Source: Pseudoalteromonas rubra (GTDB lineage: Bacteria; Pseudomonadota; Gammaproteobacteria; Enterobacterales; Alteromonadaceae). Taken from it: 64,000 nucleotides of DNA. Where the stretch lies: assembly GCF_001482385.1 (NCBI RefSeq), contig NZ_CP013611.1, positions 620,001 through 684,000 on the forward strand, read 5' to 3'. The notes beneath the pieces are model-generated. The model was not told the DNA's origin, did no database searches, and saw only the letters and a list, made by a program, of their open reading frames with translations. A program made the position numbers and the translations under genes. Of this stretch, positions 35,542-37,835 are shown piece by piece; within the stretch, counting starts at the first letter, position 1, and the number at the start of each line of letters is the position of its first letter.

Positions 35542-36411
35542 ATGGAAATATTAGAGTTAATTCGATTTGTCGAGATTGCGAATGCAAAGACGCTTCAGAG
35601 CGCAGCGACCAACCTACACACAACACCAGGCGCATTATCCAAATCATTGAAAAAACTAGAGTCTTCGCTGGGTATATTGCTATTCGACCGAGTCGGAAAG
35701 CAGCTGGTCCTTAACGAAAATGGTAAACGCCTTTTGCCTCAGGCGATTAAGATTTTGGACCTCAAAGATAACGTAAAAGCCATGTTGACCCCCACAAGCC
35801 CTGTTTTTAATTGCCGAATCTCCGCGCCGGCTATCCTCCAATATCGCTGGATAGGCATTATCGGTGCTACGGCTCGTGATATCCAAATAGAATATGAAAC
35901 CGACTTCGAACTTACTGCACTCGAAAAAGTTAAAAAAGGCGTAATTGACATAGCACTGACAACTCAACTGATCCAGCCCCATTTGAATGAGGATCTCGAA
36001 ATGGTCACAATTGGAGAGCTAACGTTAAACTTAGCGGTTGGTAAAACCCACCCATTAGCTGGCAAACGCTCAGTGACCTCAGCAGAGCTTGTGAACTACC
36101 CATTCGCCGTACCAAATACGTCTCCATTCTGTGGTGAATTACGTGGGCTAAGTTGTGATGGCTGGTCAAGTAGCAGTCTAAAAAGAGAAACAAAATGGAT
36201 TGTTAACGATTACGCAGCGCTTTGTGAACTGGTCAAATGCGGCCTGGCCGTTGCTTATTTGCCTGATTACATGATTGAGGCCTGGCAGCTCATTCAACTT
36301 AAAGTGGCTTTAAACCTCAAGAACAATACTGAACAGGTGTGTTTGATTTACCGACGACATGCACCTGCCTGGATAAAAGCGCTGGCTAGAGAGGTAAAAC
36401 CAATTAGTTGA
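35542..36411 (+). CDS. LysR-family regulator
   Basis: A 289-residue LysR protein: N-terminal wHTH (LIRFVEIANAKTLQSAATNLHTTPGALSKSLKKLESSLGILLFDR), then a substrate domain. Divergent from the secreted unknown gene at 34825-35475, which LysR convention makes a candidate target. The RiPP-like gene lies 150 bp downstream on the same strand. Confidence 0.88.
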   Translation: MEILELIRFVEIANAKTLQSAATNLHTTPGALSKSLKKLESSLGILLFDRVGKQLVLNENGKRLLPQAIKILDLKDNVKAMLTPTSPVFNCRISAPAILQYRWIGIIGATARDIQIEYETDFELTALEKVKKGVIDIALTTQLIQPHLNEDLEMVTIGELTLNLAVGKTHPLAGKRSVTSAELVNYPFAVPNTSPFCGELRGLSCDGWSSSSLKRETKWIVNDYAALCELVKCGLAVAYLPDYMIEAWQLIQLKVALNLKNNTEQVCLIYRRHAPAWIKALAREVKPIS

Positions 36412-36561
36412 TGAATAGCAGTATGCATCTACCCCTGTTCAGATACTCATATTCTAATTGATATTCTATAAGCAACTGATTTTTATATATTTATTACTTG
36501 AATAGTGCAAACTATGCTGTTGCTGTCATTGAGCTTTGTAAACAAAAAAAGAAATTTAGAA

Positions 36562-36741
36562 ATGAAATTCAAAGCAAAGAAAATCAAGCAACTTTCCAAG
36601 TCACCTCAGTCACTTAATCCTGTAATGACACCTCAGATAGGCGGCGGTTCTGCAAGCTGTCACACAGATGGCGTCACGTGTGCTTCAGAGTTTTGTTATT
36701 CTCGCGAAGCCCACACAGACTGTAGTGACCTGCTTAAATAA
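36562..36741 (+). CDS. Cys-rich small peptide, RiPP-precursor-like
   Basis: A 59-residue peptide. A Lys-rich leader (MKFKAKKIKQLSKSPQSLNP) is followed by VMTPQIGGG (glycines 27-29), then a core SASCHTDGVTCASEFCYSRE with four Cys in all at 33, 40, 45 and 54. A leader ending in TPQ[IV]xGG with a short Cys-rich core is the look of orphan lanthipeptide-type precursors of Pseudoalteromonas, from memory. ATG 36562 is preferred over GTG 36505, which has no site and prepends an unrelated stretch. No modifying enzyme or exporter is adjacent. A terminator follows. Confidence 0.65.
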   Translation: MKFKAKKIKQLSKSPQSLNPVMTPQIGGGSASCHTDGVTCASEFCYSREAHTDCSDLLK

Positions 36742-36804
36742 TTGCCAGGGTTTGTTAGTTTGCCTAGCCAGACACAAACCAAATTCACTTGATTTATAAA
36801 CTAG

Positions 36805-36829
36805 AAAAGCCAGCAATGTGCTGGCTTTT
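36805..36829. terminator. Bidirectional terminator between the small peptide and trhO
   Basis: AGCCAGCA / TGCTGGCT stem with a 3-base loop, flanked by AAA and TTT, placed between two convergent genes. Confidence 0.8.
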
Positions 36830-36848
36830 ATGATCTTATTAAACAGTT

Positions 36849-37835
36849 TTAAGCTGATTTAGCGCGCTGCGCGTCTTTCTTTGCTTGTTTTTGCTCTTTA
36901 CGAGCACGTAAAGTTTCCTGCGCTTCATGGCCGATATGGCCCTCACCACGCTGCTTTGCCAGTTCCATTTGTCTTTGGCGCTCTGCAAAACGGGCTTTTT
37001 GCTCTTCGGTCACATTATCATGACAGTGATGGCAGGATACACCTTCCATATATTCCGGACGCTGCATTTCTTCTGCGGTGATCGGCATACGACAAGCGTG
37101 GCACTGATCATATGAGCCCTTGTTCAAATCATGATCAACGGCAACGCGGTTATCAAATACAAAGCACTCGCCTTCCCACATCGTTTCTTCTTTGGGCACA
37201 TCTTCCAGATATTTAAGAATACCGCCCTCAAGGTGGTAAACTTCATCAAATCCCTGCTCCTTCATATAGGCAGTCGACTTTTCGCAGCGTATGCCACCAG
37301 TACAGAACATCGCGACTTTTTTATGCTTAGCTGGGTCCAGATTCTTCTCGGCCCACTCTGGGAACTCGCGAAACGTCTTTGTATTCGGGTCGATGGCATT
37401 TTTGAACGTACCGATTTCAATCTCATAATCATTACGCGTATCAACCAAAACAACGTCAGGATCAGAAATCAATGCGTTCCAGTCTTGTGGCTTAACATAG
37501 GTACCAACCACTTCTTTAGGATCGATGCCCTGAACACCCATTGTCACGATTTCTTTTTTCAGCTTAACCTTAGTGCGATAAAATGGGCAGGTTTCGTCAT
37601 ATGATTCTTTGAAAACGATATTATCCAGGCCTGGTTGTTTATCAAGCCACGCCAGTAAAGCATCAATACCTTCGCGCTTTGCGGCAACCGTACCGTTGAT
37701 CCCCTCTTCTGCCAGTAACAAAGTGCCACGCACTTCATTGGCTTCCATAACGTCCAGCAAAGGCTGACGGATCGCCTGGTAATTAGGCAAAGACACAAAC
37801 TTGTACAAGGCACATACAACAAAATGGTTATTCAT
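36849..37835 (-). CDS. trhO: tRNA uridine 5-hydroxylase TrhO (rhodanese domain)
   Basis: A 328-residue protein of the YceA/TrhO family that makes 5-hydroxyuridine at the tRNA wobble base. N-terminal domain [21 protein letters not shown]; rhodanese domain with [16 protein letters not shown] (catalytic Cys); then a Cys-rich C-terminal part ([14 protein letters not shown]). Length fits the family. The Lys-rich tail is species-specific. Confidence 0.94.

Follow-up and report, generated by a model that had tools for sequence, protein, structure and literature searches.

A probable class I lanthipeptide precursor encoded alone in Pseudoalteromonas rubra, one of a scattered family of about 40

Class I lanthipeptides are known from Pseudoalteromonas itself. 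The available text of PMC12819058 names pseudorosins A-C as characterised members of the class and cites Pseudoalteromonas flavipulchra S16 as the origin of these peptides and the PsfB system, and PciA of P. citrea is another class I lanthipeptide of the genus (PMC9993889). Among other marine gammaproteobacteria, the class includes the thalassomonasins and viridisins, whose precursor genes are described in the accessible part of PMC11433236 as lying inside one gene cluster. A class I cluster with a C39 component is reported for P. viridis in PMC11015633, the available portion of which names no scattered precursors for it, and the available portions of PMC10456417 and PMC9576775 add nothing further on scattered class I precursors. 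In Bacteroidota, class I LanA peptides have an LxLxKx5L leader motif, a GG site and a C39 protease (Walker et al. 2020; PMC7268733, in part). A scattered repertoire is known for the prochlorosins, class II lanthipeptides of marine cyanobacteria in which one tolerant machine, ProcM, serves scattered precursors with kept leaders, divergent cores and GG cleavage; in the accessible text of the same source, scattered precursors are tied to class II CCC synthetases (PMC11251773). The prochlorosin precursors number 29 according to the part of PMC12328550 available. In the literature searched, no class I precursors of Pseudoalteromonas were described as scattered; the pseudorosin paper, which lay outside that search, may describe some.

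The window analysed here is the whole 64,000-nucleotide stretch C1:620001-684000 of P. rubra. On its forward strand, a gene for a 59-residue peptide (36562..36741, +) starts with the ATG at 36562 and stops with the TAA at 36741; in-frame starts further upstream exist (GTG 36505) and are supported by no family copy. Residues 1-29 form the leader (36562..36648, +), which ends in TPQIGGG. The family alignment places the double-glycine site at residues 28-29 (36643..36648, +), where column G28 is invariant in 27 of 27 aligned family leaders, and a C39 peptidase would cut after residue 29. The 30-residue core (36649..36738, +) carries Cys 33, 40, 45 and 54 together with eight Ser/Thr. The peptide is preceded by an ORF which we take to be of the LysR type (35542-36411, +) and followed by one that is presumably of the rhodanese/TrhO type (36849-37835, -), both named from their sequences. 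When the DNA was reread, the ORF, its four cysteines, its GG site and its neighbours, the preceding LysR gene included, were just as the sequence-only reading had described them. That reading saw no LanB or LanC nearby, and all listed matches in the source genome do fall outside the window. No Pfam or NCBIfam model matches the peptide, a curated lanthipeptide precursor match not being required of the class, and Rfam yields no RNA element match. The gene was also considered as mobile cargo, an idea rejected on 0 plasmid matches, the phage matches being three weak ones at E 0.7-0.9.

The peptide had been called an orphan, and a genome search for paralogues had been proposed; that search removes the label. 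With the peptide as query, its own genome (G000, 5.91 Mb, three contigs) returns 22 matches at E <= 10, whereas a single-peptide scan of the genome_contigs collection finds no relative, because the cores vary too much. A leader profile was built from 27 leaders, 19 from the source genome and 8 from three other genomes of the genus, with L017 (spurious, with stops), L025 (opening with a stop) and L026 (lacking an ATG) left out of A1 and A2. It gives 41 matches in the source genome at E <= 0.01 and 43 at E <= 10, of which 42 were kept and C1:677454 was dropped for lying within a 558-aa frame. The window leader scores 55.3 bits (E 5.9e-14) against this profile, of which it is itself a part. At 39 of the 42 leader places there is an intact short ORF with a hypervariable core (33 on contig 1 and 6 on contig 2, including one weak row, C1:2742369, E 1.11). 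The other three, C1:4179600-4179683, 1370933-1371001 and 4310523-4310579, are broken by a shifted frame, a missing start or truncation, a sign of turnover. The window gene is thus one of about 40 paralogues that share its leader. Mean pairwise identity is 0.445 for leaders and 0.166 for cores (shuffled cores, 0.152), and Cys is found 108 times in 1032 core residues against once in 1180 leader residues. Cys occurs in 37 of the 39 intact cores, and in each of these the Ser/Thr count is at least the Cys count. A GGA-type ribosome site is present at 37 of the 42 places; the five misses are two copies for which an upstream ATG was picked, two broken copies and the window gene. Two leader motifs are known for class I, FxLD and LxLxKx5L. 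The LxLxKx5L motif of Bacteroidota LanA is found in relaxed form in 34 of 39 leaders and in strict form in 17, the window copy and its orthologue fitting neither form, although the window leader fits the family profile. No 6-, 7- or 8-mer upstream of the 39 copies rises above shuffles, so a shared promoter box was not detected.

The same reading suggested looking for LanBC enzymes with a C39-type exporter, and all of these are encoded about 2 Mb away. The genome contains one complete class I lanthipeptide set, in one run on the minus strand of contig 1: LanB (C1:2732138-2735287, -), with both dehydratase domains (PF04738 and PF14028); LanC (C1:2735295-2736515, -), with PF05147; a C39-ABC exporter (C1:2736693-2738837, -), with PF03412 and ABC; and an HlyD protein (C1:2738868-2740112, -). 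Among the closest solved relatives of LanB are NisB and MibB-type dehydratases. The zinc site of LanC is of the CCH type, with its CYG and CHG motifs, and solved bacteriocin transporters that contain a peptidase align with the exporter over its whole length. The window gene is about 2.1 Mb from this machinery. The precursors nearest to HlyD are 2.3 and 3.6 kb off, one of the two matching weakly. Another follows at 71 kb, and 37 of the 39 intact precursors are more than 10 kb from LanBC. Paralogues and RiPP enzymes, whose joint absence was to have counted against the sequence-only reading, are therefore both found, and they support its proposal of a leader-GG-core RiPP precursor that would be processed in trans. 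A class I precursor is recognised by LanB and LanC in the same genome and by a leader followed by a core that holds Cys and Ser/Thr, and both are present. Very probably the 36562 ORF is a LanA, the precursor of a class I lanthipeptide, which stands alone, is modified in trans and belongs to a scattered repertoire like that of the prochlorosins. In the predicted sequence of events, the single LanB would bind the leader and dehydrate core Ser/Thr using glutamyl-tRNA. LanC would then add the Cys thiols, giving up to four (methyl)lanthionine rings, and the C39-ABC exporter would cleave after Gly29, the core being exported together with the HlyD protein. The same LanBC/C39 set would serve the whole family, some 40 precursors spread across the two large replicons, and one set of enzymes would in this way make a repertoire of different peptides.

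The distribution of the leader follows that of LanB. In a set of 60 genomes of the genus, LanB is above the cut-off in 30 and LanC in 29, G040 being without LanC. The leader is found in 30 as well, which are the very genomes that have LanB, with 0 discordant, and the 30 LanB-free genomes have no leader match at E <= 0.01. Each LanB-bearing genome has from 1 to 77 leader matches, the most being in G026. In a set of 295 genomes of the order, leader and LanB are each found in the same four, again with 0 discordant. Two of these four, G000 and G058, also belong to the genus set, and the leader counts per genome in the order set are lower bounds (26 of 56 candidates were scored in G000). When the LanB label is placed on a tree built from trhO for the 60 genomes, 4 changes are needed, and well-supported branches force at least 2 of these, so that few independent events underlie the co-occurrence. 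In this tree a long branch leads to G003, G025 and G042, and four rows have an odd composition. An independent-pairs test finds 2 pairs on supported branches, too few for significance, the leader and LanB labels being identical and thus one label entered twice.

This distribution bears on two other readings of the peptide. It could be an unmodified double-glycine bacteriocin or signal, cut by C39 and exported with disulfides in place of lanthionines, as its GG leader, the C39 exporter and the even Cys number of the window copy would allow. However, leader and LanB coincide genome by genome, the Cys number is odd in 20 of the 39 copies (4 with one, 11 with three and 5 with five), and G040 retains LanB without a LanC match, all of which makes such a peptide highly improbable. 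A substrate of another RiPP enzyme, whether radical SAM/SPASM, YcaO or a class III LanKC on the second replicon, is slightly less credible still. The genome does encode 2 SPASM proteins, 2 YcaO proteins and one LanKC-like protein, and TIGR04149, a model for radical-SAM precursors, has weak matches in 3 of 27 family members (best E 0.006). SPASM, however, occurs in 21 of the 60 genus genomes, namely 18 of the 30 that bear precursors and 3 others, and is absent (E <= 0.001) from the remaining 12 of those 30, while YcaO is in 60 of 60. Radical SAM and YcaO enzymes were rejected as modifiers since neither tracks the leader as LanB does. The class III-type synthetase of the source genome (C2:465151-467871, or L057:7151-9871) is a 907-aa protein with RamC_N, kinase and LANC_like parts. 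Downstream of it are ORFs that we take, from their sequences, to be an S9-peptidase-like protein and an ABC transporter, and together they probably make up a second, separate lanthipeptide cluster.

The class I precursor reading also draws on an orthologue at the same site. In G052, LysR, peptide and TrhO occur in the same order as in the window, together with a 464-aa ORF. The two peptides are identical at 41 of 59 aligned residues and all four Cys are kept. Between them, dN is 0.176 and dS 0.793 for the whole peptide, and 0.215 and 0.958 for the core. A neutral simulation (20000 runs, with the same base number substituted) gives P values of 0.00095 for the whole peptide, 0.0097 for the core and 0.05 for the leader, and the pair is under purifying selection. 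The ORF is therefore beyond chance, given this selection, the 42 leader places and the lack of leaders in the LanB-free genomes. Ser30/Thr and Thr35/Ser are swapped between the two peptides, as against a change of Ser32 to Asn in G052, which suggests positions 30 and 35 as dehydrated ring partners. From spacing and from the Ser/Thr kept in the orthologue, our guess at the rings would be Ser30-Cys33, Thr35-Cys40, Ser42-Cys45 and Ser47-Cys54.

The window gene might instead be a decaying copy, a member of the same precursor family that is no longer usefully expressed and is left over from fast turnover, as the three broken members elsewhere in the genome could illustrate. Its ribosome-binding region (36545..36561, +) is weak, with AAAGAAA where the G052 orthologue has AAAGGAAA, and no other copy among the 39 intact ones lacks a GGA-type site. 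At its N-terminus the leader falls two residues short of the orthologue's, and 0 sigma-70-like sites were found in 36400-36860, against 1.5 expected in shuffles. Of five close relatives compared at the site, only G052 keeps the peptide: G044 has a 3' remnant, and none was seen in G041, G067 or G049. On the other side, the frame, the four Cys and the core are kept against neutral expectation, as the core value of 0.0097 shows, but the test covers all of the branch that separates the two species and is thus blind to recent decay. On balance we think decay unlikely, well behind a working precursor yet far ahead of the other two alternatives. With its weak ribosome site, the 36562 copy may be poorly expressed; taken singly, this gene makes a modest case and shows signs of weak expression, and the family is the finding. 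The LysR gene was rejected as a dedicated regulator: in three relatives LysR persists at the site in the absence of the peptide, so the two are not coupled. Four relatives (L148, L149, L151 and L152) have a 464-aa ORF in the interval from LysR, or the site of LysR, to trhO; the window has none.

The arrangement can now be set beside the systems described above. The pseudorosin system is, like this one, class I and of the same genus. In P. flavipulchra ATCC BAA-314, a LanBC locus (LanB 63% identical) is flanked by leader-family ORFs, which we infer to be the pseudorosin precursors, whereas in the source genome nearly all of the precursors (37 of 39) lie outside 10 kb of LanBC. The thalassomonasins and viridisins also combine class I enzymes with several precursors per machine, although in their case the precursors sit in one cluster. 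GG sites and C39 processing are shared with the Bacteroidota LanA peptides, as is, for most leaders of the family, the leader motif in a relaxed form; unlike those peptides, represented by NF038153 and NF038158, the present family is gammaproteobacterial and scattered, and these two models match only 1 and 2 of the 27 family members, weakly (E about 0.003). With the prochlorosins it has in common many scattered precursors, a kept leader, variable cores and one machine. The prochlorosins, in contrast, use a class II LanM with CCC zinc ligands, while here LanB and LanC are separate and LanC is of the CCH type, and their 29 precursors compare with leader matches that reach 77 in a single genome. 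The window gene thus looks like a new addition to a known class, and its arrangement resembles a class I counterpart of the prochlorosins.

We consider it somewhat more likely than not that this is a class I diversity-generating system, in which one LanB-LanC (CCH)-C39 set serves dozens of singly scattered precursors and which is derived from an ancestral local cluster. If so, a repertoire can be scattered without a class II synthetase or a CCC cyclase. Genome mining based on clusters would also miss most lanthipeptides of these marine bacteria, since so few intact precursors are found within 10 kb of the enzymes. As a class I counterpart of the prochlorosins, found in a bacterium closely related to existing laboratory strains, the system would make it possible to test how tolerant LanB and a CCH LanC are of different substrates, along with the purpose of such a repertoire. 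Relatives of LanB were found in 37 named loci, 34 from Pseudoalteromonas, 2 from Colwellia and 1 from Psychrobium. At least one leader-family ORF lies within the fetched stretch at 26 of the 37, and at none of the five loci with a LanB at least 91% identical to the source's (three of them P. rubra). LanC has CCH in 40 of 40 recovered cases, from 43 stretches (three without LanC) that count some genomes twice (L182 and L223; L195 and L222). In G312, G155 and G009 precursors adjoin LanC; the precursors of an ancestral cluster would have spread later. G040 (L224) is perhaps a dying system: its fetched stretch has LanB, no LanC match, no exporter and a single adjacent precursor with a decayed-looking core. 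Mostly without Cys, and thus unable to form lanthionines by themselves, Thr/Ser-rich cores that repeat, for example, NTDTVTQ or SSDTSVT are encoded by tandem leader-family ORFs near LanBC in L168, L169, L170, L174, L176, L192, L199 and L200.
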